This document shows positions 41,459-54,201 of a stretch of 64,000 bases of DNA, in pieces. This DNA comes from Hyphomicrobiales bacterium. Its GTDB lineage: Bacteria > Pseudomonadota > Alphaproteobacteria > Rhizobiales > Beijerinckiaceae. Position 1 is the stretch's first letter. The number at the start of each line of letters is the position of its first letter. Both the position numbers and the translations under genes were made by a program. The notes beneath the pieces are model-generated. The model worked only from the letters and a program-made list of their open reading frames with translations, did not search any database and was not told the DNA's origin. The stretch lies in NCBI GenBank assembly GCA_930633495.1, contig CAKNFJ010000001.1, positions 2,229,001 through 2,293,000 on the forward strand. Reading direction: 5' to 3'.

Positions 41459-42250
41459 TCAGCGCGTTTGCCGATAAACCCAGACCCGGGCGGGCGGGAT
41501 ATTGCGCAGCACCCAGTCCGACACCGTGGCCTTGAGCCCGGAGCCCTTGCGCGGGATCGGCGAGATCACCGAATAGGTGAACTGGATGAAGGGCGCGCCC
41601 TCGACCAGAAGCGGGAAGGCCTCGCGGGCCAGCGCCGAGCGTGTTGCCGGCGGGCGATTGAACAGCGGCAGGCTCGAGACCAGCGCGATCGCCTTCTCGT
41701 GCAGATGGCCGGACAGCGTCTTGGACAGGGCATAGGCGTCGCCCTGCACCACGGTCGCGCGCGGAAAGCGCTGGCGCAGAAGCTCGCAGAATTCGGGGCT
41801 GTATTCGACGAGGATCAGCCGACTCTCGTCGACGCCGCGCTCGATCAGCGCCTCGGTGACGGGGCCGGTCCCGGGGCCGATCTCGATCACCGGCCCGGAT
41901 TGCCCCGGGTCGACATAGGAGGCCATCCGCCGCGCCAGCGCCGGGCTCGACGGCGTCACCGAGCCGGTTCGGAGCGGATCGTCGATCCATGACTTGATGA
42001 AGCGGGCTTCGTCTCCGAGCTTGGCCTTGGCCTCGCTGACGCGGCTCTTGAACTTCTCCGCGGTGCTGCGGACCTCGCTCTCGACCTTGTAGCGCACCGC
42101 CGCGACCTTGAGCTTGGCCTCGGCCACGCTGTCGACGAGGTCCGCCGCCGTCACCCTGACCTCGCCCTCGATCCGCGACGCCACGCGGGACTGCCCGAGG
42201 CGAGCGGCCAGCGAGGTTGTGCGCGGGCGATGACGAACCGTCGAAGACAT
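41459..42250 (-). CDS. PmtA-like phospholipid N-methyltransferase
   Basis: This is a 263-residue class I methyltransferase. SAM motif I is VIEIGPGTGPVTEAL, followed by LILVEYSPEFCELLRQRFP and VVQGDAY. The SSLPLFNRPP segment and the preceding FIKSWIDDPLRTGSVTPSSPALARRMA closely follow Rhizobiaceae-type PmtA, which converts phosphatidylethanolamine towards phosphatidylcholine. An unusual N-terminal extension of about 90 residues is helical and charged (VDSVAEAKLKVAAVRYKVES) and could mediate membrane or partner binding. An AAGGGGTG site precedes the ATG at 42250. Confidence 0.8.
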   Translation of the reverse strand: MSSTVRHRPRTTSLAARLGQSRVASRIEGEVRVTAADLVDSVAEAKLKVAAVRYKVESEVRSTAEKFKSRVSEAKAKLGDEARFIKSWIDDPLRTGSVTPSSPALARRMASYVDPGQSGPVIEIGPGTGPVTEALIERGVDESRLILVEYSPEFCELLRQRFPRATVVQGDAYALSKTLSGHLHEKAIALVSSLPLFNRPPATRSALAREAFPLLVEGAPFIQFTYSVISPIPRKGSGLKATVSDWVLRNIPPARVWVYRQTR

Positions 42251-42371
42251 GGCACCCCTTGATCGCCGCCGAGACAATGTCCGTGACGCAGTCGAACGTT
42301 ACCTGCGCGGCATATGGGGTCAAGACCGCCGCCCCGCCAAGCCATTTTTCGACGCCGGCGGTGAAAAGCCG

Positions 42372-43127
42372 TCAGATCAACGGCCTCGGCACCGCGTTCT
42401 GCGCGTAGATCGAGGCCATGCGCGCCGTCAGGCGGGGATTCAGCAGCGTCAACTGCCCGTTCGACAGCGAAAACAGCCCGGCCTTGCGCAGGCGCGACCA
42501 GGTCTTGCTGGTGTGGACCAGGGAGAGGCCGAGGGCGTCGGCGAGTTGCTGCTGCGAGAGCGGGAAGGCGAAGCTGTGGTTGCTGACCAGGCCCAGCGCA
42601 TCGGCACGGTGATAGAGCGAGATGATCAGCGCCGCGATTCGTTCGCCGGCACTGCGTTGTCCGACCGAGGTCAGATTGTCGTCGATCAGGCACTCCTCGC
42701 GCGAGCCGAGCCATGCCAGCTCATAGGCCAGCGTCGGCATCCTGACGAACAGGTCCCAGATCCGCTTGCGCGGAAAGACGCAGAGCTCGACATCGGTCAG
42801 GGCTTCGATGCCGTGCTCGGCCGCGCTCAGCAGGGACGCCTGCAAGCCGACGAGATCGCCCGGCAATAGGAAGTTGAGGATCTGGCGGCGCCCGTCCGGC
42901 AAGGATTTGTAGCGGAAGGCCCAGCCCGAATAGAGCGTATAGAGCTCCGCATCCTCCTGGCCGGGGTGGATGATGTCGGCCCCGGCCGCCAGGGCGCGAT
43001 GGTCAAGCTTCATCGCCTGGATGAAGCGGATCTCATCATCGGTCTTGCCCTTGAAAGCGGGCTTCAGCCGCAGCGGACAGGCAAGGCAGGGCGTCCCGAG
43101 CCGCCCGTGCTTGGTTGCGATGTTCAT
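42372..43127 (-). CDS. Crp/Fnr family transcriptional regulator
   Basis: The product has 251 residues: an N-terminal cyclic-nucleotide-binding-like beta-roll (LYTLYSGWAFRYKSLPDGRRQILNFLLPGDLVGL), a long dimer helix and a C-terminal winged helix with the recognition segment LSQQQLADALGLSLVHTSKTWSRLRKAGL. The only nearby cysteines are C-x2-C (PCLACP) near residue 14, fewer than in the iron-sulfur FNR type. The ATG at 43127 is the likely start. An EcfG-type promoter motif lies 50 bp upstream, which puts this regulator under the general stress sigma factor. Confidence 0.87.
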   Translation of the reverse strand: MNIATKHGRLGTPCLACPLRLKPAFKGKTDDEIRFIQAMKLDHRALAAGADIIHPGQEDAELYTLYSGWAFRYKSLPDGRRQILNFLLPGDLVGLQASLLSAAEHGIEALTDVELCVFPRKRIWDLFVRMPTLAYELAWLGSREECLIDDNLTSVGQRSAGERIAALIISLYHRADALGLVSNHSFAFPLSQQQLADALGLSLVHTSKTWSRLRKAGLFSLSNGQLTLLNPRLTARMASIYAQNAVPRPLI

Positions 43128-43176
43128 GAACGGAAACATTCCCCCGAAACCGCTGCGGATGCCCCGGCAACCGGGA

Positions 43177-43202
43177 AACGCATGAGGCCAGCGCAGCGTT
43201 CC
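43177..43202 (-). promoter_or_regulatory. EcfG-type promoter for the Crp-family gene
   Basis: On the minus strand GGAAC (43202-43198) and CGTTTC, with CGTT at 43180-43177, are separated by 17 bp. The predicted transcript starts near 43170, leaving a leader of about 43 bases. Confidence 0.7.
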
Positions 43203-43217
43203 TTCAGTGTCGTTTCG

Positions 43218-43243
43218 GGAACAATCGGCCCACTCCCCGCGTT
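43218..43243 (+). promoter_or_regulatory. EcfG-type promoter for the 93-residue membrane protein
   Basis: GGAAC (43218-43222), a 17-bp spacer and CGTT (43240-43243) lie 50 bp upstream of the ATG at 43294. It diverges from the matching motif at 43177-43202, with 15 bp between the two GGAAC boxes. Confidence 0.7.
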
Positions 43244-43293
43244 GCCTTCGCCGAAATCCGGCCCTCGCGGCCACAAAGCGTTGGGAGACAACC

Positions 43294-43575
43294 ATGCTGC
43301 AAAACAGCCTCGCCCCCGCTGCACGAGCCCTGCTTTTCTTCGGCGTCATGGGGGCGGCTGTCAGCGGGCTGACACTCGGAGCACAGTGGCAGATGCCGAC
43401 CGACCAGAGCTCGACCACCGTCGCCCAGGCCAGGGGCGAGCGGGACCTCGGTGCCGATCTGCGCTTTGCCGCCGTCGATCACGCGGATCGTGCGCAGAGC
43501 ACCGCGAAGCGCGCCAGCGCCTCGCCGTCGCAGCATGCGATGGCGGACAGCCCCATCGCGAGAATCCTGCGCTGA
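43294..43575 (+). CDS. Small hypothetical protein with one N-terminal membrane segment
   Basis: The protein has 93 residues. A hydrophobic helix (ARALLFFGVMGAAVSGLTLGA) begins near residue 10, followed by a polar, alanine/serine-rich tail. It could be a signal peptide or a membrane anchor. A GGGAGA site precedes the ATG by 6 bases, an EcfG-type promoter lies just upstream, and a strong terminator follows the stop, so it is a complete single-gene unit. I do not recognise the family. The context suggests an envelope stress role. Confidence 0.7.
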   Translation: MLQNSLAPAARALLFFGVMGAAVSGLTLGAQWQMPTDQSSTTVAQARGERDLGADLRFAAVDHADRAQSTAKRASASPSQHAMADSPIARILR

Positions 43576-43602
43576 TCGATATCGTCAGTCGAATATCCTG
43601 AG

Positions 43603-43638
43603 CTCTGCCGGCCGGAAGGGGCCGGCAGAGTCGTTTTC
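43603..43638 (+). terminator. Rho-independent terminator after the small membrane protein gene
   Basis: An 11-bp perfect stem (CTCTGCCGGCC / GGCCGGCAGAG) with loop GGAAGG is followed by TCGTTTTC. The T-run is on the plus-strand side. It also separates the gene from the convergent histidine-kinase-like gene. Confidence 0.85.
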
Positions 43639-45290
43639 TATCCGATGTGCCTGACGCGCCAGCGCCCCAGCGTGCGGGCATGGGGCTCCACGGCCTGGAT
43701 CGCCTCGATCTGGGCAAGGAGCCCGGCAAAGATGCGCGGCGGCTGGCCATGGCTGATGTCGCGATCGGCATCGAGCCCGATCTCGATCGTGTTCTCGTCG
43801 ATGTCGATCGCGCTGACCGTAATCCGCACTCCGGGCGTCGCGCGCAGGGCCCGCGAAGCGACATCCGCCACGAGGAAGCCGAGCGGAATGATGCGGTCGA
43901 CGGAGAGGGTCGCCGAGGTCTCGAACCGGCTGGCGACCTGCTGGTCGCGACCGCGGATCAGATTCGCGATCATCGCGACGACATCGTCGAGGAACAGATC
44001 CACGCGGACCGGCTGCATTTCGCCGTCGGCCAACGTGAAGCGATATGCGGCCGAGAGCACATGCACGCGGCATTCGGCATCGGCCAGGGCAAGCCGCGCC
44101 TCGCTCTGATAGTCGCGCTTGCTCAAGCCGATATAGCTCTGGACGACCTGCAGGCTGTTCTTCACGCGGTGGTGCAGCTCGCGCACCAGGAACCGATTGT
44201 CGTCGAGGGCGGTCTGCAGCCGGCGCTGGCGCACCTCCTGCTCGTCGACCATGGAATTGAAGGCTTCGGCAACGCTGCGGATATCGCTCGGCATGGCGTC
44301 GGCGATCCGCACCCGCGCCCGCGGGGAGGTCGCGCGTGCACGCGCCGCAGTTTCGATCCCGCGCAGCCAGCGCACGCAATGCTTGTCGATCGCACGCAGA
44401 TAGACGAGGCAGAGCAGCCCGAGCGTCGCGAGCGGCGCCAGCAGGAGCAGGATGAAGCGCAGCCGCGCCGCGCGGGCCGGCCCGTCATCGAAACTGGCGA
44501 TGACGTAGAAGTCCGGCGCGGCGACCATGCGGGCGACATAGTTGTGATCGGCGCCGGCGCGGCTCGGCGCGGTCCAGCGCTCGTAATCGACCGGAGTGCG
44601 GTTCTCCCCGGGCAGCCACGACATGTCGCTGCCCGGGCCGCGGCTGGCGATGACCCCGCCGCCCCGGCCGATCAGCGCGACGTTCATCTCCTGCCCGTCG
44701 TCGCCGAGGTCGAAAACATTCTCGAGCAAATCGGGGGTGGTCAGGAGGAGCGCTTCCCGCAGCTGCCCGCCCGAGGCCTGCGCATCCGCCATCAGGACGG
44801 CGAGATAGCGCCGGTCCGCGACCGTCACCTGATCGTAGCGGATCCGGCCGAGATCCGCCCCGTTCCAGGTCGCGACGGAAGGACGCCCGGCAAGCTCGCT
44901 GGCGATGCCGCTCAGGGTTTCCTTCGAAAGTCCGGCTTCGAGGGAGGCGGCGCATACGCGCCCGTCGGCGCCGCGCAGGAAGAAGGCCCGAAAGCCGCTC
45001 GCCCGCGCCACCGCGGCGACGCCGGCGTCCTCGCAGGCGGCCGTCTCGAAGCGGGCATCGCTCGCCACGGTGCCGAAGGCCAGCAGCGCGCGCGATGCGC
45101 CGCGATACCAGACCCGCGTGCGCACGGCGAAATCATCGACGGTGCGCGCCTGCGCCGTCTCGATCGTGGCGATCGCGGTCCGATAGGTCGCATAGGCGGC
45201 GAAGGCCGTGGCGCAGCCGACCGGCACCGCGATCGCGACCAGCAGGGCCAGAAGGCGCCCGCGGACAGTCCTGATCCGCGCCAGAGGCAT
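43638..45290 (-). CDS. HisKA_2-type sensor histidine kinase homologue with degenerate ATPase domain
   Basis: This is a 550-residue protein with two membrane helices (about 10-32 and 281-303) enclosing a periplasmic sensor region, then a HAMP-like stretch and a HisKA_2 dimerisation domain with the phosphoacceptor in ELHHRVKNSLQVVQSYIGL. The following ATPase region is not normal. The N-box, which should read like NELVTNALKHA, is VADVASRALRA, and the DxG and GLG boxes cannot be found before the end (GRWRVRHIG). Its start overlaps the ecfG stop by one base. At this locus it may control PhyR phosphorylation as a phosphatase or scaffold rather than as a kinase, like PhyP of Sphingomonas (inference). 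Confidence 0.8.
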   Translation of the reverse strand: MPLARIRTVRGRLLALLVAIAVPVGCATAFAAYATYRTAIATIETAQARTVDDFAVRTRVWYRGASRALLAFGTVASDARFETAACEDAGVAAVARASGFRAFFLRGADGRVCAASLEAGLSKETLSGIASELAGRPSVATWNGADLGRIRYDQVTVADRRYLAVLMADAQASGGQLREALLLTTPDLLENVFDLGDDGQEMNVALIGRGGGVIASRGPGSDMSWLPGENRTPVDYERWTAPSRAGADHNYVARMVAAPDFYVIASFDDGPARAARLRFILLLLAPLATLGLLCLVYLRAIDKHCVRWLRGIETAARARATSPRARVRIADAMPSDIRSVAEAFNSMVDEQEVRQRRLQTALDDNRFLVRELHHRVKNSLQVVQSYIGLSKRDYQSEARLALADAECRVHVLSAAYRFTLADGEMQPVRVDLFLDDVVAMIANLIRGRDQQVASRFETSATLSVDRIIPLGFLVADVASRALRATPGVRITVSAIDIDENTIEIGLDADRDISHGQPPRIFAGLLAQIEAIQAVEPHARTLGRWRVRHIG

Positions 45291-45895
45291 CAGGACCCGA
45301 CAGGTTCGGAACCGACCCTCTGCATCGCGGCCGCGCTCGTCCGGTCCGGCCCCAGATCGTCGACGCTGCCGATGGAGAGCAATTCCGCAAGCTTGGTCCG
45401 CGCGCGGTTGACCCGGCTCTTGATCGTGCCGATCGCCACGCCGCAGATATCGGCGGCCTCCTCGTAGGACAGCCCCGTCGCGCCCACCATGATGAGCACC
45501 TCGCGCTGTTCCTCGGGCAGCTTCGCCAGCGCCTTGCGGAAATCGGCGAGGTCGAGATGGCTTTCCTGATTGCCGTGGGTCGCCATGCGCTCGGCATAGG
45601 TTCCCTCGCTGTCCTGCACTTCCCGCCCGCGCTTGCGATAGAGCGAGTAGTAGGTGTTGCGCAGGATGGTGAAGAGCCAGGCGCGCAGGCTCGTCCCAGG
45701 CTCGAACTTTTCGGCGTTGCCCCAGGCCTTGAGCAGCGTGTCCTGCACGAGGTCGTCCGCGAGCTGCATCGAGCCAGACAAAGACGCGGCGAAGGCGCGC
45801 AGATTGGGGATTTCGCGGATCAGGCCGTCCTTGAACTCATTGGCGGCCTGGGAAGCGGCCCTGGTGTCACCCGCCTCGACGTCACTTGCACTCAT
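45290..45895 (-). CDS. ecfG: General stress response ECF sigma factor EcfG
   Basis: This is a 201-residue ECF sigma factor. Region 2 reads LRAFAASLSGSMQLADDLVQDTLLKAW and region 4 reads LPEEQREVLIMVGATGLSYEEAADICGVAIGTIKSRVNRAR, both characteristic of the EcfG group. It directs RNA polymerase to GGAAC-N16/17-CGTT promoters and is held by NepR until PhyR is phosphorylated. Its start overlaps nepR by 14 bp and its stop overlaps the kinase-like gene by one base, so all three are one transcript. The EcfG-type promoter upstream of nepR predicts positive autoregulation. Confidence 0.95.
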   Translation of the reverse strand: MSASDVEAGDTRAASQAANEFKDGLIREIPNLRAFAASLSGSMQLADDLVQDTLLKAWGNAEKFEPGTSLRAWLFTILRNTYYSLYRKRGREVQDSEGTYAERMATHGNQESHLDLADFRKALAKLPEEQREVLIMVGATGLSYEEAADICGVAIGTIKSRVNRARTKLAELLSIGSVDDLGPDRTSAAAMQRVGSEPVGS

Positions 45896-46106
45896 CTGAC
45901 GACGCTCCGGCTGCGCGCTGCTCCGTCGCTTCGAGTTGCGCCAAGAGCACGAGAAACTTGTCCGGCACGGGCGCGTTCACGATGTCGTCGTAATGAGCCT
46001 TCAGCGAGCGGCCGATCGATTCCTGCACCTTGGGATCGAGAACCATTTCGAAGTCGTCATTATCGCCTCCGTCAGGTTCCGACATCGCTGCATCCAGCTT
46101 GTTCAT
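45882..46106 (-). CDS. nepR: Anti-sigma factor NepR
   Basis: This is a 74-residue protein with the NepR core IGRSLKAHYDDIVNAPVPDKFLVLLAQLE, two helices that bind either EcfG or the sigma-like domain of phosphorylated PhyR. An acidic N-terminus and a flexible tail flank the core. The ATG at 46106 has a GAGGG site; an internal ATG at 46085 is also possible. It is first in the nepR-ecfG-kinase operon and divergent from phyR. Confidence 0.93.
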   Translation of the reverse strand: MNKLDAAMSEPDGGDNDDFEMVLDPKVQESIGRSLKAHYDDIVNAPVPDKFLVLLAQLEATEQRAAGASSDECK

Positions 46107-46214
46107 CTCAGCCCTCGCGCCACAAACGGGCCTGCTTTTCCAGCAAGTCCCGCTTCTCACTTTTACGCCGGCGAGACCAGAGCCGAGTGGCGGTGGCGAC
46201 ACCAATGCGCCCTA

Positions 46215-46242
46215 ATAACGAGCACAAATCCAAAAAGGTTCC
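46215..46242 (-). promoter_or_regulatory. EcfG-type promoter of the nepR-ecfG operon
   Basis: On the minus strand GGAAC (46242-46238), a 17-bp spacer and CGTTAT (46220-46215) match the EcfG consensus about 110 bp upstream of nepR. This indicates autoregulation. Confidence 0.8.
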
Positions 46243-46265
46243 ACATTGCGCAAAAAATAAATTCC

Positions 46266-46293
46266 TTGTCAGAGGCGCAGGCTAAGTCATTAT
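46266..46293 (+). promoter_or_regulatory. Possible sigma-70 promoter for phyR
   Basis: TTGTCA (46266-46271) and CATTAT (46288-46293) are spaced by 16 bp, 28 bp before the phyR ATG. No EcfG-type motif faces phyR, so a housekeeping promoter is the simplest reading. Confidence 0.4.
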
Positions 46294-46320
46294 TCCGGCA
46301 CGATAAAAAGGGACGCGTTC

Positions 46321-47115
46321 ATGTCGATCGCCAAGGAAATTGCGCCTCATCTTCCGTATCTGCGCCGCTTCGCGCGCGCCCTCAGCGGCAGCCAAGCCAG
46401 CGGCGATGCCTATGTCGTCGAAATGCTGGAAGCGCTGGTCGCCGATCCTTCCGGCTTCCCGCGCGGGATCGATCCGCGCGTCGGCCTGTACCAGACCTTT
46501 CTGAAGCTTTGGTCCTCGGCCGGGGTCGATGCCAGCCAACCCATCGTCGAGCTGTCGCGGGCGGCGGCCGAGCGCAACCTCGAAGCGCTGACGCCGCGGC
46601 CGCGGCAGGCCTTCCTGCTGCGGACCGTCGAGGGCTTCTCGATCGAGGAGGTCGCCGCGATCATGGGCGTCAACACCGCCGATGCGGCGGCGCTGATCCA
46701 GACCGCCGGGCAGGAAATAGCCGAGCAGGTCGCGACCGACGTCCTCATCATCGAGGACGAGCCGATCATCGCGCTCGACATCGAGACCATGGTCGAGGAG
46801 CTCGGCCACAGCGTCACCGGCGTGGCCCGGACCCAGCGCGAAGCCGTCGCGCTCGTCGCCAAGAAGCGACCGGGACTGGTGCTCGCCGACATCCAGCTGG
46901 CCGATGGCAGCTCGGGTCTCGATGCCGTCAACGAGATCCTCTCCTCGATCGACGTGCCAGTGATCTTCATTACCGCCTATCCCGAACGGCTGCTCACCGG
47001 AGACCGGCCGGAGCCGGCCTTCCTGATCACCAAGCCGTTCCAGCCGGAAGCGGTGAAGGCCGCCATCAGTCAGGCGCTGTTCTTCGACCGCCGTGCCGGC
47101 CGCAAAGCCGCCTGA
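46321..47115 (+). CDS. phyR: Response regulator PhyR (sigma-factor mimic)
   Basis: The product has 264 residues. The N-terminal half is an EcfG-like domain that mimics sigma regions 2 and 4 (LPYLRRFARALSGS ... LTPRPRQAFLLRTVEGFSIEEVAAIMGV). The C-terminal half is a receiver with phospho-acceptor D190 in VLADIQL, the acidic pair in IIEDEP, the FITAYPERL motif of the FATGUY class and the lysine in ITKPFQP. Phosphorylation exposes the sigma-like domain, which sequesters NepR and frees EcfG. It diverges from nepR-ecfG and ends in a strong terminator. Confidence 0.96.
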   Translation: MSIAKEIAPHLPYLRRFARALSGSQASGDAYVVEMLEALVADPSGFPRGIDPRVGLYQTFLKLWSSAGVDASQPIVELSRAAAERNLEALTPRPRQAFLLRTVEGFSIEEVAAIMGVNTADAAALIQTAGQEIAEQVATDVLIIEDEPIIALDIETMVEELGHSVTGVARTQREAVALVAKKRPGLVLADIQLADGSSGLDAVNEILSSIDVPVIFITAYPERLLTGDRPEPAFLITKPFQPEAVKAAISQALFFDRRAGRKAA

Positions 47116-47130
47116 ATGGATCCGGGAAAG

Positions 47131-47160
47131 CCCGCGGCCTGCCGCGGGTTTTCTGTTTTC
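47131..47160 (+). terminator. Rho-independent terminator of phyR
   Basis: An 8-bp perfect stem (CCCGCGGC / GCCGCGGG) with loop CT is followed by TTTTCTGTTTTC, 16 bp after the phyR stop. Confidence 0.9.
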
Positions 47161-47165
47161 GGGCC

Positions 47166-47190
47166 GGAACAGGCCCCGCCTTCATGCGTT
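47166..47190 (+). promoter_or_regulatory. EcfG-type promoter downstream of phyR
   Basis: GGAAC (47166-47170), a 16-bp spacer and CGTT (47187-47190) begin six bases after the phyR terminator and face the 54-residue gene at 47237. Confidence 0.7.
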
Positions 47191-47236
47191 CGCGAGTCGA
47201 TGTCGGTTTGGTGTTCGTTTCGGGAGGGCGTTGACC

Positions 47237-47401
47237 ATGGCGATGACCTGCTTGTCGGCAGCAATCGCGGCGAGTTCGATCGCCACGGCGCTGTTTTCGG
47301 GGGCCGTGGCGCCCGGGGCCCTCGGCAGCGAGATCCTGTCGCTGGTCCTGGCCGCCCTGACCAGCCTGACCATCGCCGGCGCGTCGGCTCTCGACAGCTA
47401 G
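47237..47401 (+). CDS. 54-residue hydrophobic protein, EcfG-promoter driven
   Basis: The start has an excellent GGGAGG site 9 bases upstream and an EcfG-type promoter 47 bp before it. The product is almost entirely hydrophobic and small residues, with two potential membrane segments (SAAIAASSIATALFSGAVA and EILSLVLAALTSLTIAGA) joined by a PGALGS turn, so it probably forms a helical hairpin in the inner membrane. I do not recognise a family. A small stress-induced membrane protein is the best description. Confidence 0.6.
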   Translation: MAMTCLSAAIAASSIATALFSGAVAPGALGSEILSLVLAALTSLTIAGASALDS

Positions 47402-47445
47402 AACCGGCAGGACATCCGCGACGTTCCACGACCGGCGTCGGCCTG

Positions 47446-48264
47446 ATGATGGCAGCTTGCATCGGCCTCGCGGCCACGCAAGCGCATGCGGTCGCGTCCC
47501 GAAGGTCAGCGAAGGGCGCTCCGGCCAGCCACATAGTCGTGCAAGCCGCGCCATTGCCGCCGCCGCGTCCCGCTGGCCTCGCCCCTGCCGGTCCATCCGC
47601 CGTGCGCGCGGATCGGCCGGCGGAGCCTGTCGAGCCGAAACCGGCATCGAGCGCGTCTCCCGCGCCGGCCGAGCGTCCCCAGCCGGAGACGTCGTGCCTG
47701 TCCCGCCTGGCCGCCATACCGGGCAATCTGGTCGACGATGCGGATGAGGCGGCCGTGCAGGCCGAGCCCGCCTGCCGCGTGGCCGAGCCGGTTCGGCTGC
47801 GCGCCCTCGCCCTGCGTGGCGAAGCGGGCGCGACGACCGTGACCTTCGACCCGCCGCCATTGCTGAGCTGCGCCATGGCGACGGCGGTCGCGAACTGGCT
47901 GGACACCAGCGTTCAGCCGCTGGCCCGCGGGCATTTCGGCCTTGGTCTGGCGAGCCTGCGCGTCGGCGGCGGGCAGGAATGCCGCCGGCGCAACCGTGCC
48001 TCCTCCGGACCTGTCAGCGAACATGCCACCGGTCAGGCCCTCGACATTTTCGCCTTCAAACTGGGGGGCGGCGACAAGGCCACCGCGATTTCGGTCGAGA
48101 AGCCGTCAGGCCTGGCCCAGAACCGCTTCCTCGACGCGGTGCGCCAGTCGGCCTGCGGGGCGTTCATGACGGTATTGGGGCCGGGCGCCGACGCTGCCCA
48201 TGCCAACCATCTCCACATTGATATCCAGGAGCGGCGCTCGCGCGCCTCACGTTTCTGCCAATGA
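47446..48264 (+). CDS. Extensin-like domain-containing secreted protein
   Basis: The predicted product has 272 residues: a short signal-like start (MMAACIGLAATQAHA), a proline/alanine-rich linker (about residues 30-80), then the extensin-like C-terminal domain (PF06904). This contains SEHATGQALDIFAF and AHANHLHIDIQ, a histidine/aspartate arrangement like that of M15 D-Ala-D-Ala peptidases, plus three or more cysteines (C83, C110, C166 region). It is predicted to act on or bind the cell wall. It lies 44 bp after the small hydrophobic gene and is probably co-transcribed from the same EcfG-type promoter. The start is uncertain. Confidence 0.75.
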   Translation: MMAACIGLAATQAHAVASRRSAKGAPASHIVVQAAPLPPPRPAGLAPAGPSAVRADRPAEPVEPKPASSASPAPAERPQPETSCLSRLAAIPGNLVDDADEAAVQAEPACRVAEPVRLRALALRGEAGATTVTFDPPPLLSCAMATAVANWLDTSVQPLARGHFGLGLASLRVGGGQECRRRNRASSGPVSEHATGQALDIFAFKLGGGDKATAISVEKPSGLAQNRFLDAVRQSACGAFMTVLGPGADAAHANHLHIDIQERRSRASRFCQ

Positions 48265-48271
48265 ATGGCCG

Positions 48272-48508
48272 TCAGCACATTCCGCGCTGCCACGCATGGC
48301 GAAGCCATTCGCGATCGAGAACGACGCTTTCGTCGAGGTCGACGAGCCTTGGGCCGGCACGCCGCGCCGCCATCACGGCCAGCGCGGCCTCGCGCTCCAG
48401 CCCGCTCGCGATCAGATCCTCCAGCTCCCAGAATGGCGGCAGGAGCGCAGCCTCCTGAGCGGGATCGATAATTGTTGGGATTTCTCCCCGCAGGCGACTC
48501 ACGGACAT
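48272..48508 (-). CDS. 78-residue hypothetical protein with a facing EcfG-type promoter
   Basis: The frame begins MSVSRLRGEIPTII and ends EWLRHAWQRGMC. It is rich in leucine, alanine and charged residues (FWELEDLIASGLEREAALAVM) and should form short amphipathic helices. A longer start at 48520 is possible. No family is recognised. The main evidence for a real gene is a perfect GGAAC-N16-CGTT motif at 48561-48537 placed 30 bp upstream of this start, and the absence of any competing gene on the plus strand. It is convergent with the extensin-like gene. Confidence 0.5.
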   Translation of the reverse strand: MSVSRLRGEIPTIIDPAQEAALLPPFWELEDLIASGLEREAALAVMAARRAGPRLVDLDESVVLDREWLRHAWQRGMC

Positions 48509-48536
48509 CGACGTTCCCATGCCAAGATGAAGCGCC

Positions 48537-48561
48537 AACGCAACAAGCTTCCCTTGGTTCC
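48537..48561 (-). promoter_or_regulatory. EcfG-type promoter for the 78-residue gene
   Basis: On the minus strand GGAAC (48561-48557), a 16-bp spacer and CGTT (48540-48537). It forms a divergent pair with the motif at 48570-48594; the two GGAAC boxes are 8 bp apart. Confidence 0.6.
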
Positions 48562-48569
48562 CATAGGGC

Positions 48570-48594
48570 GGAACTGTGGGTTTCTTGAGGCGTT
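48570..48594 (+). promoter_or_regulatory. EcfG-type promoter for the DUF992 gene
   Basis: GGAAC (48570-48574), a 16-bp spacer and CGTT (48591-48594) lie 31 bp before the ATG at 48626. Confidence 0.7.
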
Positions 48595-48625
48595 CCGTCC
48601 GGCTTACCCGCCAGGAGCTTATGCG

Positions 48626-49120
48626 ATGACCATCGGGCATTTCCGCGCCAGCCTCGCCCTCGCCGCCGTCGCCAGCCTGGCTTGCATGGCCGGACCTGCC
48701 CTCTCCCAGTCGCCGAGCGGGCCGCCGACCGGGCGGCTGTCCTGCACGCTCGGCACCCCCCCGACCGCGAACCTGACCGCCCAGAAGCCGATGGAATGCC
48801 GCTTCCGGCCCCGCCGCGGACCTCCCCAGCAGTATACCGGCATCGTCCATGGTTTCGGGCTCGACCTCGCATCGATCCGCAACGCAGCGCTGGCATGGCG
48901 CGTCTACGGCCCCTATGCCCGCGCCCCGCTCGGCGTGCTGGCCGGGCAGTACAAGGCGACGGGGTCGGGACCCGGCACGGGAGGCCACATGCTGACGGGT
49001 GGCGAAAAGAACGAAGTGAGCCTGCAGCCGCTGCCGTTCCAGAGCAATCGCGGCCTCAACGTCGCAATCGGCGTGACCGCCCTCGAACTGACGCTCGTGC
49101 CTCCCGGGCGGCGGCGCTGA
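48626..49120 (+). CDS. DUF992 domain-containing exported protein
   Basis: This is a 164-residue protein with a clear signal peptide (FRASLALAAVASLACMAGPALS, cleavage likely after ALSQ). The mature part follows the DUF992 layout: a cysteine-containing start (LSCTLG), YTGIVHGFGLDLASI, VYGPYARAPLGVLAGQYKA, and a closing VSLQPLPFQSNRGLNVAIGVTALEL. Function is not established; the family is common and periplasmic in alphaproteobacteria. An AGGAG site lies 8 bases upstream and the promoter is of EcfG type, so it is predicted to be stress-induced. Confidence 0.85.
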   Translation: MTIGHFRASLALAAVASLACMAGPALSQSPSGPPTGRLSCTLGTPPTANLTAQKPMECRFRPRRGPPQQYTGIVHGFGLDLASIRNAALAWRVYGPYARAPLGVLAGQYKATGSGPGTGGHMLTGGEKNEVSLQPLPFQSNRGLNVAIGVTALELTLVPPGRRR

Positions 49121-49277
49121 CCGGCAAGGCCACCGGCGCTCCCGAGCTCGGCTTTCCCGGCTCGACTCTGTCGAGCCGGCCATCAGCGCGCATGGCACAG
49201 ATTACTTTTTGCTAACCTTGACCTGGCAAAATCGACTCAAAGTCGAGGCTTTCGTCCGCTCGCGCCGGGCGGGAGCA

Positions 49278-49302
49278 GGAACATCGCCAATCCTATGACG
49301 TT
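49278..49302 (+). promoter_or_regulatory. EcfG-type promoter for the single-domain response regulator
   Basis: GGAAC (49278-49282), a 16-bp spacer and CGTT (49299-49302) lie 41 bp before the ATG at 49344. An 11-bp inverted repeat overlaps the spacer. Confidence 0.7.
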
Positions 49303-49321
49303 GTCGAGACTCATAGGATTG
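49288..49321. promoter_or_regulatory. 11-bp inverted repeat across the -10 region of the response-regulator promoter
   Basis: CAATCCTATGA (49288-49298) and its exact complement TCATAGGATTG (49311-49321) flank a 12-base centre that starts with the CGTT box. The position over the -10 element and start site suggests an operator, although a leader hairpin cannot be excluded. Confidence 0.6.
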
Positions 49322-49343
49322 CAGTGAGTGAGAAGCCGGTTCG

Positions 49344-49724
49344 ATGGCTGATATCCGCGTTCTGATTGTCGAAGACGACCCGTTCATCGCCATGGACATC
49401 GAAAGCGCCGTGGCGGATCAGCTCGGCGACGGTGCCGAGCTGATCGTGGTCGAATCCGTCGCCGAAGCGCGCCGTGCCGCGGCACGCAAGCTGTCCTGCG
49501 CCCTGCTCGACATCGACGTGGTCGGCGGCAAGACCTTCGATGTCGCGAGCGCGCTTCAGAAAGCGGGAATACCGTTCGCCTTCGTCTCGGGCTCGGCCCC
49601 GAGCGAGGTTCCGGCGCCGCTGCGCAATGCCCGTTTCCTGCGCAAGCCCTTCTCGATCCGCGAGGTCGCCACCTTCGTGATGAACGCAATCGGCTCGGCC
49701 CCCAGCAAGGTCATGCAAGGCTAG
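49344..49724 (+). CDS. Single-domain response regulator
   Basis: This is a 126-residue stand-alone receiver domain. The acidic pocket is in VLIVEDDPFIAMDIESA, the phospho-acceptor is D56 in ALLDIDVVGG, the switch serine is in FAFVSGSAP, and the conserved lysine is in FLRKPFSI. There is no output domain, so it acts as a phosphotransfer intermediate or by protein contacts, as several such regulators do in alphaproteobacterial stress signalling. It is convergent with a CHASE3 histidine kinase, its probable partner, and has its own EcfG-type promoter with an overlapping inverted repeat. Confidence 0.9.
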   Translation: MADIRVLIVEDDPFIAMDIESAVADQLGDGAELIVVESVAEARRAAARKLSCALLDIDVVGGKTFDVASALQKAGIPFAFVSGSAPSEVPAPLRNARFLRKPFSIREVATFVMNAIGSAPSKVMQG

Positions 49725-49738
49725 AGCATCGGCGCCCG

Positions 49739-51127
49739 TCAGGCCGTGGCCGGCGCAGGCTCCCGCTTCGGAAAGGTCAGCACCACGCGCGTTCCGGGAC
49801 GCTCCGATCCGGGATGCAGCGGCTCGGTGGTCATCGTCGCCCGCATGCTGCGCAAGAGGCTGGCGATCACCGTCTGGCCGAGCCCCTTGTGCTCGACACC
49901 GGCCGGCAGCCCGATGCCGTCATCTTCGATCGTCATGACGAGGGCCGGCGCGCCCTCCGCCTCGCCCTGACCGAAGCGGATGGTAACGCGCCCCGTCATG
50001 CCATCGGGGAAGGCGTGCTTGATCGCGTTGGTCACCAGCTCGTTGACGATGACGACGAAGGAGACCGCATCCCGCCCCGGCAACCGGATTGCGTCCATAT
50101 CGAGGTCGATCCGGATCGGGCGGCCTTCCGCGGCCTTGCCGATCTCGGCCAGCAGGTCCTCCATATAGGGCCTTGCGTCGATCTCGTCCGTCTCGATGTC
50201 GAGGCGCAGGCGCCTCTGCCCGGCCGCGATCGCCTGGATGCGCGATTGCGCCTGCGCCAGAGCCGCCTTTACTGCCGGCTCCCGCGTCTGCCGGCTCTGG
50301 ACATTCAGCAGCGCCGAAACCATGGCGAGGTTGTTGCCGACGCGATGATTGACGTCGCGCAGGAGGGCCTCGATCCGCAGCCGCTCGCTCTCGAGCTCCC
50401 GCGTCCGCTCGCCGACGACCTGCTCGAGCTCGGCATTGCTGAGCGCCAAAGCGGTGCTGCGGCGCTGGCGCAGGCGCAACTGTTGCCACGCCGCATAGGC
50501 AAGCCCCGCCAGCGCAATGACGATCCCCGTGCTGCCCCAGAGCCGGCGGCGCTCCTCCCGGCGGTACAGCGACAGAAGGCGAATATTCTCGCCCTGCTGG
50601 ATTTCCCGCACCGTGTCGCGCAACCGGTCCATGGCATCGCTGCCGCTGGCATCGCGGACCAGCGCCAGGGCCTGATCGCGCTGCCCGGCCCGCTCCAGCA
50701 TGATCGTGCGGTCGAGCTCCTCGAATTTGAGGCGCATATCGGCGCGCAGCTTCGCCACCCGCTCCTTCTGAATCGGATCGGCATCGACGAGGGCGGCGAG
50801 GATGTCGAGTTCCGGCCCGGCCGCCGCGCGTCCTTCCGAAAACGGTTCCAGATAGCTCGCCTGACCGGTGAGCAGATAGCCGCGCTGGCCCGTCTCGGCG
50901 TCGCGGAGGCGACCGAGGAAGCGCTCCGCTCGCTCGCGAACCTCGATGGCATGCGAGGCGAGATCGGCCGTGCGGCGCGCCTGCTGGTTGATCCATGCGG
51001 CGAGAACGATCGCCACGGCGACGACGCCGATCGCGATGATCGTGGTCGTGGCCGAGCGAAGCCTTGTGCGAAACCCCGGAAGAACCGGGACCAGGGGGCG
51101 GCTGCGCGGTCTCACCTGAGCGGACAT
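49739..51127 (-). CDS. CHASE3-domain HisKA_2 sensor histidine kinase
   Basis: This is a 462-residue protein with an N-terminal membrane helix (TTTIIAIGVVAVAIVLAAWI), a CHASE3 sensor including LGRLRDAETGQRGYLLTGQASYLEPF, a second membrane helix (TGIVIALAGLAYAAW), then a HisKA_2 domain with LRDVNHRVGNNLAMVSALLNVQSRQ. The ATPase boxes are intact: VNELVTNAIKHAF, EDDGIGLP and GLGQTVIASL. It is therefore a complete kinase, in contrast with the degenerate one beside ecfG, and a plausible phosphate donor for the convergent response regulator or for PhyR (inference). Confidence 0.9.
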   Translation of the reverse strand: MSAQVRPRSRPLVPVLPGFRTRLRSATTTIIAIGVVAVAIVLAAWINQQARRTADLASHAIEVRERAERFLGRLRDAETGQRGYLLTGQASYLEPFSEGRAAAGPELDILAALVDADPIQKERVAKLRADMRLKFEELDRTIMLERAGQRDQALALVRDASGSDAMDRLRDTVREIQQGENIRLLSLYRREERRRLWGSTGIVIALAGLAYAAWQQLRLRQRRSTALALSNAELEQVVGERTRELESERLRIEALLRDVNHRVGNNLAMVSALLNVQSRQTREPAVKAALAQAQSRIQAIAAGQRRLRLDIETDEIDARPYMEDLLAEIGKAAEGRPIRIDLDMDAIRLPGRDAVSFVVIVNELVTNAIKHAFPDGMTGRVTIRFGQGEAEGAPALVMTIEDDGIGLPAGVEHKGLGQTVIASLLRSMRATMTTEPLHPGSERPGTRVVLTFPKREPAPATA

Positions 51128-51214
51128 GCCAGCCTTGTTAAAGGATGCATGCCGACATCCCTATGTAAAATGACAGGGCGCGTCCACCGTCGACCACCAC
51201 GGGCAAGGCGGAGA

Positions 51215-51640
51215 TCACGCACCGTCCTCGCCCTTGTCGCCACCCGTCGCGATCTGACGGCCGAGAATGGCACCGAGCGCGATGACCCCGCCGGCGATGA
51301 CCAGCCGCCAGTTCAGGCGCGAGCCAACGAGCTTCGCCGCCAATGGCGCGGCGGCGAGCGCAGCCGTCGCGGCCGGCCGGGGCGGGCGGCGCCGGCCCTT
51401 GACGAAGAGCCCGATGCAGAACGCGAGAAGGGCCGTGGCAGCGAGGCCGCCCGCGACCCAGAGGCTCGCGGCCACCGCGCCGTAGTGCTGCTCCAGCAGT
51501 GTATGCACCGCATTGAGCGCGTAGCCGCCGGCGCAAAACAACAGCAGCAGCGCTAGGCCGAAGAGGCCATAGACGGCGATATTGCGCTTCATCGCGCCGG
51601 ATACTTCCGAAGCGATGAAAGATCCAAGCCCCCCGAACAT
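51215..51640 (-). CDS. Small inner-membrane protein (phage holin-like/YqjE-like)
   Basis: This is a 141-residue protein with at least three hydrophobic helices (NIAVYGLFGLALLLLFCAGGYAL, AASLWVAGGLAATALLAFCIGLFV and LVIAGGVIALGAILG) and basic, proline-rich linkers. Its start is 2 bases from the stop of the DUF883-like gene upstream, so the two are coupled. YqjD/YqjE-type pairs are typical stress-induced membrane proteins; this pair has that arrangement. The exact family is not certain. Confidence 0.7.
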   Translation of the reverse strand: MFGGLGSFIASEVSGAMKRNIAVYGLFGLALLLLFCAGGYALNAVHTLLEQHYGAVAASLWVAGGLAATALLAFCIGLFVKGRRRPPRPAATAALAAAPLAAKLVGSRLNWRLVIAGGVIALGAILGRQIATGGDKGEDGA

Positions 51641-51642
51641 GG

Positions 51643-52002
51643 TCAGCGTGCCGACAGATAGCCGACGAACAACCCGACCGCGGCCGCCAGCCCGAGCGCG
51701 CGTAGCGGCCGCTCGCGGATCTCGTCCTCGATCAGCTTCTGCAGCTCCGTCGCCTGCTCCTTGGCGACGTCGACCATCTTGTCGGTATCGACACCTACGG
51801 CGCGCAGCCGATCCGTGACATTCGCCGCGATCTCCTCCGCACTGCGGGTGAGCGTGTCCTCCAGGGCGCTGGCCTGCCGCTTCGCGCGTGCGCCGGTTTC
51901 ACGCATCTCGGCCGCGACATCCTCGGCGCCAGCCTCGACCTCTGCCTTGGCACGCTTGGCGGCGGCAGCCGCCTGTCGTTTCGCGGATGTCGTGGTTGCC
52001 AT
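51643..52002 (-). CDS. DUF883/YqjD-like C-tail-anchored protein
   Basis: This is a 119-residue protein: an alanine/lysine-rich helical region (residues about 8-90, with long coiled-coil character), followed by the YqjD-type end DEIRERPLRALGLAAAVGLFVGYLSAR, in which a short membrane helix follows RERPLRAL. In E. coli such proteins are RpoS-controlled, tail-anchored and ribosome-associated. Here an EcfG-type promoter lies about 80 bp upstream, so general-stress control is conserved in principle with a different sigma factor. The ATG at 52002 has an AGGAA site. Confidence 0.85.
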   Translation of the reverse strand: MATTTSAKRQAAAAAKRAKAEVEAGAEDVAAEMRETGARAKRQASALEDTLTRSAEEIAANVTDRLRAVGVDTDKMVDVAKEQATELQKLIEDEIRERPLRALGLAAAVGLFVGYLSAR

Positions 52003-52082
52003 GACGATCGGTTCCTGTCGCTGGTGGGATGGCAATGGTGCCGGGGTGGCGGCGTCGCCGCAAGGGGCTCCGTCCGTGTCGA

Positions 52083-52107
52083 AACGCCCCGGCAGCGCGT
52101 CTGTTCC
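52083..52107 (-). promoter_or_regulatory. EcfG-type promoter of the YqjD-like operon
   Basis: On the minus strand GGAAC (52107-52103), a 16-bp spacer and CGTTTC, with CGTT at 52086-52083. It lies 80 bp upstream of the ATG at 52002 and 12 bp after the permease stop. Confidence 0.75.
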
Positions 52108-52118
52108 GGCGTGGCGGC

Positions 52119-53252
52119 TCAAGCGGGCTGCGCTTCGGCCGTTTCCTCGGCTTCGGCCTTGGCCTTCTCGCGGCGATAGCGGGCAAACTCTTCCTGCGCC
52201 ACCATGGCGACGATGACGATCGGCGTCGAGAGCACGGCGCCGATCGGCCCCCAGAGCCAGAGCCAGAAGATGAAGGCGATGAAGACGAGGAAGGGCGAGA
52301 TCGTCAGCCGGTTGCCGACGAAGATCGGCGTGACGGCGTTCCCCTCGACGAGATGCAGGATGTAATAGGCTGCCGCCGGCCAGAGCGCGGAGACGATCGA
52401 AGGCGCGTCGAGCAGCGCTCCCGCGAGCAGCAGGACCGCGACGATGACCGGGCCGATGAAGGCGAGGTAGTTGAGCAGGAAGGCGAGCGCCCCCCAGAAC
52501 AGCGGGAATGGCAGGCCGGCGAGCCAGGCGATCGCCATGGTCAGCACGCCCATGCCGAAATTGATTACCGTCACCAGGGCGAAATAACGCGCGACCCGCG
52601 TCTCGATCTCCTCGAAGAAGGAGCCGGCCGAGCGGCGCGCACCACGGCCGAGGCAGAGCCTCAGGATGCGCGCCTTCAGATGGCGGCGCGTCGCCAACCA
52701 GAAATACACGGTCGCGAAAAAGACCAGCAGGCCGCCAGCCGCCGTGGAGGACGTCATGGCGATGTCGAAGAGCGGATTGCCTTGCGAAACGCTGAGCTCG
52801 GCGCCCTTGCCGGTGATCGAGGCGATGCCGCGCTTGAACTCGTCCATGAAGGCGAAGACGCGGGCGAGCTTGGATTGGAGCGCTGCCATCATCGCCGGCG
52901 CCTGATCGGTCCAGCCCGCGACCGGCACGGCGAGAATCGCGACCGCGCCGAGCAGCAGGCCGATGAAGAACAGCACGACCAGCGCCGCCGCCGCATGCTG
53001 CGGAACGCGATAGCGCGCCAGCACGTCGACGAGCGGGCCGAGCACCAAGCCGAAGATCACGCCGGCCATGACCGGCATGGCGATGACCTTGGTCAGCGCC
53101 AGCGACGCCATCGCCAGGATGACGAAGATTCCGACGATCGCATAGCGGAGGATGAGGTCATGTTCATAGGGCGTGACCTCCTCGGTCTCCTCCACCGGTT
53201 CCGGCTCCGCCATGTAGCGCGGAAACGGCCGCCAGGCCGATGAGCTGAGCAT
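52119..53252 (-). CDS. AI-2E family transporter (PerM/YdiK-like permease)
   Basis: This is a 377-residue membrane protein with about eight hydrophobic segments arranged as in PF01594: two or three near the N-terminus (YAIVGIFVILAMASLALTKVIAMPVMAGVIFGLVLG), a soluble helical middle part, then VARYFALVTVINFGMGVLTMAIAWLAGLPFPLFWG and the closing LTISPFLVFIAFIFWLWLWGPIGAVLSTPI. The family includes exporters of unknown natural substrate; true autoinducer-2 export is not implied. An ATG at 53213 is an alternative start. Confidence 0.85.
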   Translation of the reverse strand: MLSSSAWRPFPRYMAEPEPVEETEEVTPYEHDLILRYAIVGIFVILAMASLALTKVIAMPVMAGVIFGLVLGPLVDVLARYRVPQHAAAALVVLFFIGLLLGAVAILAVPVAGWTDQAPAMMAALQSKLARVFAFMDEFKRGIASITGKGAELSVSQGNPLFDIAMTSSTAAGGLLVFFATVYFWLATRRHLKARILRLCLGRGARRSAGSFFEEIETRVARYFALVTVINFGMGVLTMAIAWLAGLPFPLFWGALAFLLNYLAFIGPVIVAVLLLAGALLDAPSIVSALWPAAAYYILHLVEGNAVTPIFVGNRLTISPFLVFIAFIFWLWLWGPIGAVLSTPIVIVAMVAQEEFARYRREKAKAEAEETAEAQPA

Positions 53253-53328
53253 GTTCCTGCTTCCAACGCGCAACCGCGCCCCCCTGGCGCGTCGGAAGCG
53301 TCAACGCGACAAGGATCGGCCGGGTTCC

Positions 53329-54201
53329 CTACCGATACCCCAACGCTCTGAGAATGGTCTTTTGCTCAAGGGTGAGCGGCGCCCCGAACGGCTCCGGCAG
53401 AAGCTTGAAACCGTAACCCTTTATCTCTCCCCCTCGCTTGATAAATCGCGGCATGAGGGCAGCGATGTACTCGGTTTTTAGGATCTTGAATCGATCATGA
53501 TCGATCGCTTGGTAGATGGCACTCGCAACACAATCCGCCAACTGCAACCCAGCATGCTGGCTCGACCTAACTCCTTCTAATCCGTCTATGTCCAAAACCG
53601 AAAATATCGGCCTTCTCTTACTATTAAAATACGATCTCGGCCTGCTCTCAATCTCTAGCTTTCTTAGATAATTTCTTGTTTGCGTATAAGAAAATCCTTT
53701 TCTGTATTCAATTATAGTTTTAAGTTTACGATCCTTACCAGAATAATGTATATTATTTAATCTACTACACTCTTCAGTCGCACTCTCAATTAAATATCTC
53801 AATATATTATTGTAAAACCAATTTATCTTTGGGACAAATTTCCTCCCATTGCGATACATAGAGCTTCTTTCTTCAACTCTCCGATTCCTATACCCCCTCA
53901 TATTGCGCTTATTGGATACAACGCAAACAATACCTATCTTAAAATTTGCAATATCGCTCAGTATTATATTCTTATAATTATCATCTAAATCGCGAAAATG
54001 TATCGTATCATGAAAATTAATTCCGATTTTTTTCTTAAGACTTGATACAAACGAAACAATTTCTTGATTTCTATGCGCCGAATACAAAACGCCAGCCATT
54101 ACAAAATACTCAGATGCTCCATCTTCATCTAATGGCCTCACCCTCTCAATGCCATCATCGCCTGCTTCATCAACACAAAAGACGAAGCTGTATTCTGGCA
54201 T
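53329..54201 (-). CDS. DUF3800 domain protein, AT-rich, coupled to polA
   Basis: This 290-residue protein begins with the DUF3800 hallmark FVFCVDEAGDDG and carries HDTIHFRDL in the middle and SSQHAGLQLADCVASAIYQAI near the end, the usual acidic positions of this RNase H-like, predicted nuclease family. Base composition is much lower in GC than both neighbours, and rare codons such as ATA and TTA are common, so recent transfer is likely. Its ATG overlaps the polA stop codon by one base (TGATG), so it is translated from the polA transcript. Function is unknown; family members are often near mobile or defence genes. Confidence 0.85.
   Translation of the reverse strand: MPEYSFVFCVDEAGDDGIERVRPLDEDGASEYFVMAGVLYSAHRNQEIVSFVSSLKKKIGINFHDTIHFRDLDDNYKNIILSDIANFKIGIVCVVSNKRNMRGYRNRRVEERSSMYRNGRKFVPKINWFYNNILRYLIESATEECSRLNNIHYSGKDRKLKTIIEYRKGFSYTQTRNYLRKLEIESRPRSYFNSKRRPIFSVLDIDGLEGVRSSQHAGLQLADCVASAIYQAIDHDRFKILKTEYIAALMPRFIKRGGEIKGYGFKLLPEPFGAPLTLEQKTILRALGYR

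Follow-up and report, generated by a model that had tools for sequence, protein, structure and literature searches.

Clustered EcfG-type promoter sites around phyR in a Bosea-type genome and in other alphaproteobacterial genera

In a 64-kb stretch of DNA from a Hyphomicrobiales bacterium of the family Beijerinckiaceae (GenBank assembly GCA_930633495.1, contig CAKNFJ010000001.1, positions 2,229,001 to 2,293,000, hereafter called the window), the general stress regulator genes phyR, nepR and ecfG are surrounded by a dense group of predicted EcfG-type promoters. Scanning both strands for GGAAC-N16/17-CGTT returned nine exact sites, all of them within 43,177-53,328, whereas 100 dinucleotide shuffles of the window gave 0.80 ± 0.98 exact sites and never more than 4. 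With gene calls trained on the codon use of the window itself, every one of the nine sites falls between genes, at a distance of 29-111 nt ahead of a start codon. As detailed below, it is well supported computationally that the window represents a strong case of a tendency common to many sampled genera.

Exact sites in the window and in the genome

A preliminary description of this DNA had listed eight sites with full consensus and spacing, and the exact scan recovered all of them. The gene identities given there, namely a Crp-family gene, a 93-residue open reading frame (ORF), nepR-ecfG, ORFs of 54 and 78 residues, a DUF992 gene, a receiver gene and a DUF883/YqjD-like gene, are backed by Pfam matches or ORF calls. 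Just beyond the interval described at that time, a ninth site (53303-53328, minus strand) precedes an AI-2E-family transporter gene, and the clustering is confirmed and stronger than first stated.

Across the whole genome, 5,944,473 bp in three contigs, the exact pattern occurs 96 times, and nine of these sites fall within 10,152 bp, or 0.17% of the genome (Poisson P = 2e-13 at genome density). A genome scan revealing a similar density everywhere had been named as a result that would refute the clustering; the scan was run and leaves the claim standing. As a control we used the same boxes at 12 wrong spacings (N20-31), which produced 426 matches, a count somewhat inflated by genomic repeats and equal to 71 per two spacings, leaving an excess of about 25 real sites. 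The 86 distinct sites elsewhere in the genome comprise 38 intergenic sites at most 130 nt from a start, 10 at 131-250 nt, 16 otherwise intergenic and 22 within genes. We estimate that the nine-site region, referred to as the island, holds between about one fifth (9 of 47 promoter-placed sites, these being the 9 of the island and the 38 elsewhere, each within 130 nt of a gene start) and about one third (9 of the excess of about 25) of the exact-consensus sites; both figures are only estimates, because wrong-spacing sites taken from the same genome pieces are promoter-placed in 7 of 37 cases as well. The features of the region are as follows, all promoters being predicted by the exact scan.

41459-42184: upstream methyltransferase-like gene (family name by Pfam search)
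42372..43139, minus: crp-like, Crp-family regulator gene, 255 residues (cNMP_binding 1.4e-15, HTH_Crp_2 8.5e-12)
43177..43202, minus: EcfG-type promoter, N17, 38 nt before the crp-like start
43218..43243, plus: EcfG-type promoter, N17, 51 nt before the 93-residue ORF
43294..43575, plus: 93-residue ORF without Pfam match (gene call)
43638..45290, minus: HK1, HisKA_2 protein with HRVKN motif and no ATPase-domain match, putatively PhyT/PhyP-like, overlapping the end of ecfG
45290..45895, minus: ecfG, ECF sigma factor (Sigma70_r2 2.2e-17, Sigma70_r4_2 3.9e-16)
45882..46106, minus: nepR, anti-sigma factor (NepR 1e-13)
46217..46242, minus: EcfG-type promoter, N17, 111 nt before nepR
46321..47115, plus: phyR, anti-anti-sigma response regulator (PhyR_sigma2 1.4e-25, PhyR_sigma-like 8.6e-21, Response_reg 9.4e-14)
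47166..47190, plus: EcfG-type promoter, N16, 47 nt before the 54-residue ORF
47237..47401, plus: 54-residue hydrophobic ORF (gene call)
47602..48264, plus: Extensin-like_C protein gene (PF06904 4e-43)
48272..48508, minus: 78-residue ORF, borderline coding score (gene call)
48537..48561, minus: EcfG-type promoter, N16, 29 nt before the 78-residue ORF
48570..48594, plus: EcfG-type promoter, N16, 32 nt before the DUF992 gene
48626..49120, plus: DUF992 protein gene (PF06186 4.5e-27)
49278..49302, plus: EcfG-type promoter, N16, 42 nt before the receiver gene
49344..49724, plus: single-domain response regulator, SdrG-like, here called the receiver (best PDB match SdrG 5ieb, 6.8e-11)
49739..51127, minus: HK2, CHASE3-HisKA_2 kinase with HRVGN motif and ATPase domain (Pfam), no EcfG-type promoter
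51215..51592, minus: ORF following the yqjD-like gene, called YqjE-like by position only (Pfam match below cut-off only)
51643..52002, minus: YqjD/DUF883-like gene (DUF883_C 5.8e-08)
52083..52107, minus: EcfG-type promoter, N16, 81 nt before the yqjD-like gene
52119..53213, minus: AI-2E-family transporter gene (PF01594 8.8e-39)
53303..53328, minus: EcfG-type promoter, N17, 90 nt before the AI-2E-family gene
53329-54204, minus: DUF3800 gene between the AI-2E gene and polA (Pfam 1.3e-12)

Recurrence in Bosea-type loci and in 68 genera

Among the matches listed, from which records very near the window's own genome were possibly left out, the closest named PhyR is that of Bosea thiooxidans DSM 9653 with 92% identity. 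Eighty named loci around phyR contain 473 exact sites versus 34 matches to the reversed pattern; the 40 Bosea-type loci among them and the window form the set of 41 used for the counts below, from which L194-L197, four loci of the window's genus, were left out. Genes were called with a model started from the window's codon use, which missed phyR at its expected start in 11 of 161 loci and found no genes within 8 kb in L100 and L127. All of these loci were kept in the counts, and the 161-locus totals possibly include some Bosea genomes twice, as L090 and L194 look alike.

Most of the island's sites recur in these loci. Wherever yqjD was called in the Bosea-type set, an exact site precedes it (30 of 30 loci); the same is true of the receiver gene in 37 of 39, the AI-2E gene in 18 of 19, the 78-residue ORF in 17 of 18 calls and the 54-residue ORF in 15 of 16, followed by the 93-residue ORF (31 of 40, with one mismatch in 9), the DUF992 gene (27 of 39) and the extensin-like gene (6 of 34). 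Neighbours without a site mostly stay without one: no exact site was found before HK2 (0 of 31), polA (0 of 30) or the upstream methyltransferase-like gene (0 of 40), and only 1 of 41 loci has one before HK1. The same holds for phyR, which lacks an exact site in 41 of 41 loci, one of them showing a site with one mismatch; the corresponding interval of the window is 46243-46320. According to excerpts of PMC4814048, phyR and nepR-ecfG usually both stand under EcfG promoters, an arrangement from which the Bosea-type loci, with their site before nepR and none before phyR, differ. Many Bosea-type loci furthermore carry two genes absent from the window's island, an SbmA/BacA-like ABC-transporter gene with an exact site in 24 of 29 cases and a transglutaminase-like gene with one in 14 of 31, for which L069:3860-5668 and L069:6230-7108, respectively, serve as example coordinates of the pair.

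The spacing specificity is directly visible, as the 41 loci contain 211 N16 and 91 N17 sites within 8 kb of phyR versus 1-18 for each of 18 other spacings. In the 25 loci that share one spacing at the yqjD site, identity is 31% and 35% in the flanks and 42% in the spacer, while for the receiver site (24 loci) it is 35% and 37% in the flanks and 60% in the spacer; box identity in this comparison follows from choosing exact sites, although at yqjD this choice excluded none of the loci that have the gene. Nineteen of the 39 tips on a tree of the loci carry the AI-2E gene, which changes state five times, and 18 carry its exact site, which does so six times. The back-to-back sites at 48537..48561 (minus) and 48570..48594 (plus), separated by 8 bp, belong to a recurring layout: the Bosea-type set contains 42 divergent site pairs, 30 of them on the 78-residue ORF/DUF992 side of phyR and 29 at 7-11 bp apart.

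To look beyond Bosea we compared 68 genera with one locus each, 33 from the window's family and 35 from other families. Only genomes with a PhyR match entered this set (101 of 119 in one search and 55 of 290 in the other), two further genera with matches near a contig end were omitted, and the genera are related, so they do not amount to 68 independent trials. Within 4 kb of phyR we found 97 sites versus 5.8 expected from wrong spacings inside the family and 69 versus 4.6 outside it; beyond 6 kb these numbers fall to 11 versus 2.4 and 8 versus 3.7. The fetched regions, reaching about 10 kb from phyR, contain 205 sites versus 20.1 for a uniform spread computed with rounded genome sizes; the 350 bp before phyR account for 57 of the 205 and the rest of these regions for 148. 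Over the same 68 whole genomes 4,790 sites face 3,685.7 expected ones, an excess of 1,104. Spacing is again specific, with 144 N16 and 51 N17 sites within 8 kb of phyR versus 2-13 for each of 18 other spacings, and 31 of the 68 genomes hold three or more sites near phyR.

Forty-five of the 68 genera carry site-bearing genes near phyR that are not labelled phyR, nepR or ecfG, 98 in total versus 2.9 from wrong spacings. These genes fall into 52 families; 38 of the families occur in one genus, and two of the genes are NepR-like. CsbD and DUF1328 are the commonest families with 9 genera each, ahead of YqjD-like proteins in 8, PRC-barrel and entericidin in 5 each and DUF3309 in 4, each of these names coming from a single member of the family. 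The grouping recurs beyond Bosea, usually more weakly than in the window. The proposal that the stress regulator and many of its targets are kept together is supported by the clustering in the genome, the recurrence in Bosea-type loci and the distance gradient over the 68 genera; its "many" means, in this genome, between about one fifth and one third of all sites with the exact consensus.

Regulator adjacency and the EcfG consensus were already known from what excerpts of PMC4814048, PMC7083833 and PMC3892343 describe, and the consensus found here is that of the Methylobacterium extorquens and Sphingopyxis granuli EcfG regulons (PMC4814048, PMC7083833). Unlike the window, M. extorquens AM1 has no ecfG at its phyR locus, as stated in the excerpt of PMC4814048. 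RNAs with EcfG promoters near the general stress response locus have been noted in R. etli (ReC64, PMC3892343), and proximity to that locus has been used to predict GsrN homologues (PMC5869019). In these cases, as here, units bearing EcfG promoters lie near the core regulators; unlike them, the window shows nine such units in one locus, mostly protein genes, and its site after phyR precedes a recurring 54-residue ORF. The reading of this site as a small RNA promoter was put to the test: an Rfam search of 42000-54300 at E up to 1 matched no family, and the downstream ORF recurs in many, though not all, of the loci looked at. The literature consulted, as far as excerpts go, presents general stress regulons of alphaproteobacteria as genome-wide target lists, and among the titles and abstract openings found by searching an open-access collection none reports that EcfG promoters are enriched near phyR at the scale of the regulon. 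The components are known, and the new part is their arrangement and its breadth. Because EcfG-type promoters are in measured excess near phyR across the 68 genera, with target families that differ by lineage, the geography of the regulon becomes testable, for instance as a function of distance from the sigma gene.

A putative relay and its feedback

The island encodes the PhyR-NepR-EcfG partner switch, with PhyR combining sigma-like and receiver domains and adjacent to NepR and an ECF sigma factor; nepR, ecfG and HK1 likely form one transcription unit behind the site at 46217..46242. HK1 matches HisKA_2 and HWE_HK, and a HATPase match was found in none of 18 HK1 orthologues (Pfam, alignment sequences), HATPase_c being matched by all ten HK2 orthologues. 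In an alignment with HK2, HK1 keeps its HRVKN motif, but not the N- and G-box residues of HK2. Its predicted structure (mean predicted local distance difference test, pLDDT, 81.5; predicted template modelling score, pTM, 0.46; 18 sequences in the alignment) shows a long helix at the N terminus, a putative sensor region with matches to Cache-type ligand-binding domains and a core that resembles kinase structures such as 4r39 and 6ph4; as the Foldseek matches span several domains with poor overall superposition, only the domain types were used. With its location at the phyR locus, its HRxxN motif and a degenerate ATPase domain, HK1 shares features with PhyT/PhyP, and we regard it as a putative PhyT/PhyP-like phosphotransferase. 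HK2, with HRVGN and an ATPase-domain match, resembles the Pak-type HRxxN kinases. The receiver is a single-domain protein with D56 and K101 invariant in 16 sequences; its Pfam receiver match is weak (0.0032, below cut-off), its PDB match to SdrG (5ieb) clear.

Excerpts of PMC5898713 describe PhyT/PhyP of Sphingomonas melonis Fr1 as membrane-anchored proteins at the phyR locus, with HRxxN motif and degenerate ATPase domain, which pass phosphate from SdrG to PhyR. The window likewise encodes an HRxxN protein with a degenerate ATPase domain at the phyR locus, and its SdrG-like receiver and kinase resemble the Sphingomonas pathway of SdrG and several kinases. In Sphingomonas, SdrG and the kinases (Paks) are scattered (PMC5898713), whereas here no more than 5 kb separates phyR from the genes of an SdrG-like receiver and a HisKA_2 kinase, in a locus with nine EcfG-type sites around it. 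The arrangement is also reminiscent of the SigT-NepR-PhyR system of Caulobacter crescentus with PhyK and MrrA, in which, according to excerpts of PMC5964349, a HisKA_2/HWE protein acts as phosphotransferase between a single-domain receiver and PhyR, the role putatively assigned to HK1. Unlike Caulobacter, for which at least eleven HWE/HisKA2 kinases are named in PMC5964349, a Pfam search of the present genome yielded three, HK1 and HK2 among them, though more may have escaped it.

On these grounds we consider it probable that the island works as a self-amplifying general-stress unit, in which freed EcfG would switch on its own operon, parts of the likely relay and neighbouring output genes. 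The positions, spacing specificity, clustering and conservation of the sites were observed directly; the role of each protein is inferred from family resemblance, and promoter use, relay chemistry and any benefit of proximity are inferred as well. Under stress, HK2, or else the one HWE kinase detected outside the island, would load phosphate onto the SdrG-like receiver, which would hand it to HK1, with its conserved histidine and no ATPase-domain match, and HK1 would hand it on to PhyR. Phosphorylated PhyR would then bind NepR and release EcfG, which would go on to transcribe the nine units: the crp-like regulator gene, the receiver gene, nepR-ecfG-HK1 and the other output units. Since phyR and HK2 have no site, neither would be subject to this feedback, which would instead reach the brake, EcfG itself and the middle of the relay. 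As a compact system with few HisKA_2/HWE kinases found, the Bosea island lends itself to testing a kinase-receiver-phosphotransferase-PhyR relay, and it supplies candidate stress functions for unnamed small proteins.

Alternative readings

A number of results weigh against the self-amplifying unit or the wider clustering. In 23 of the 41 Bosea-type loci the site before nepR has one mismatch, which leaves 18 with an exact one; the crp-like gene has an exact site in only 12 of 37, and HK2 was not called in 10 of 41, four of these on contigs ending within 5.5 kb of the phyR start. Seven of the 68 genera have no site near phyR at all, and 23 have no extra site-bearing gene there. The receiver carries PFAFVSGS, with F80, V81, S82 and G83 invariant in 16 sequences, in place of the PFxFATG(G/Y) motif described in excerpts of PMC5964349, and because of this replacement we call it SdrG-like only and rejected its assignment to the SdrG/MrrA (FATGUY) group. 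A second receiver, 39% identical to that of the island, is encoded at G000:C2:619500-619841, and the 4.5 kb retrieved there contain no EcfG-type site. Finally, the reversed pattern occurs 124 times genome-wide and outnumbers the 96 real sites, which would fit an origin of the sites in chance or base composition; we set it aside as a control, being a different word with its own frequency, and used wrong spacings instead. The shuffles, the wrong-spacing controls and the conservation of the boxes against diverged flanks render such an origin practically negligible. It is also very improbable that a different ECF sigma factor reads the sites. The genome does encode an ECF protein 41% identical to EcfG over about 140 residues on contig C2 (G000:C2:570241-570660) and two further matches of 34-36%, but none of the three lies beside phyR, no EcfG-type site occurs in the stretches fetched around them, and the consensus is the published EcfG one (PMC4814048, PMC7083833, as excerpted); the 41%-identical protein was therefore rejected as the reader of the sites.

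Concerning the direction of phosphate flow, HK2 and the receiver could instead act as a phosphate sink of the LovK/LovR type and so dampen the response. Their genes are convergent neighbours, the FATGUY motif of the receiver is degenerate, and LovK-LovR of Caulobacter are SigT-controlled feedback parts according to the excerpt of PMC5964349. Since the best solved relative of the receiver is SdrG, in a comparison without a LovR sequence, and HK1 bears the features of a PhyT/PhyP partner, we judge the sink unlikely and prefer a forward relay to PhyR. More weight is due to plain inherited gene order, in which EcfG targets stand beside their regulator by descent with no advantage of proximity. Gene order is largely common to the Bosea-type loci, and the presence or absence of most genes and promoters shows fewer changes on the tree than after shuffling, the extensin-like and 78-residue calls being exceptions. 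Yet the enrichment around phyR recurs and fades with distance while the 98 extra genes spread over 52 families, 38 of them single-genus, and within Bosea the AI-2E gene was gained or lost together with its site; inherited order on its own appears a somewhat doubtful explanation. A bolder reading takes the phyR locus as a nucleation point of the stress regulon throughout Alphaproteobacteria, where genes with EcfG promoters would be repeatedly recruited, swapped and lost within a few kb of the sigma gene, Bosea having gathered the input relay too, because birth beside the sigma factor would make induction faster, stronger or heritable as one block. We offer it tentatively, as conceivable but short of probable; if it were true, proximity to the sigma gene would itself confer faster, stronger or block-heritable induction.

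Some minor features of the region and the genome complete the picture. The extensin-like gene is possibly co-read with the 54-residue ORF, and its true start may lie further upstream than called. The 78-residue ORF is the weakest gene call, with a coding score of 4, and is missing from the genes that the retrained model calls in the window. Among the wrong-spacing matches, five identical ones spaced 741 bp apart at G000:C1:366276-369272 point to a long tandem repeat, and another 40-bp string recurs several times among those listed. The DUF3800 gene has a G+C content of 40.0% compared with 67% in its flanks and its end directly adjoins the ninth site, for which reason it looks like a recent insertion.

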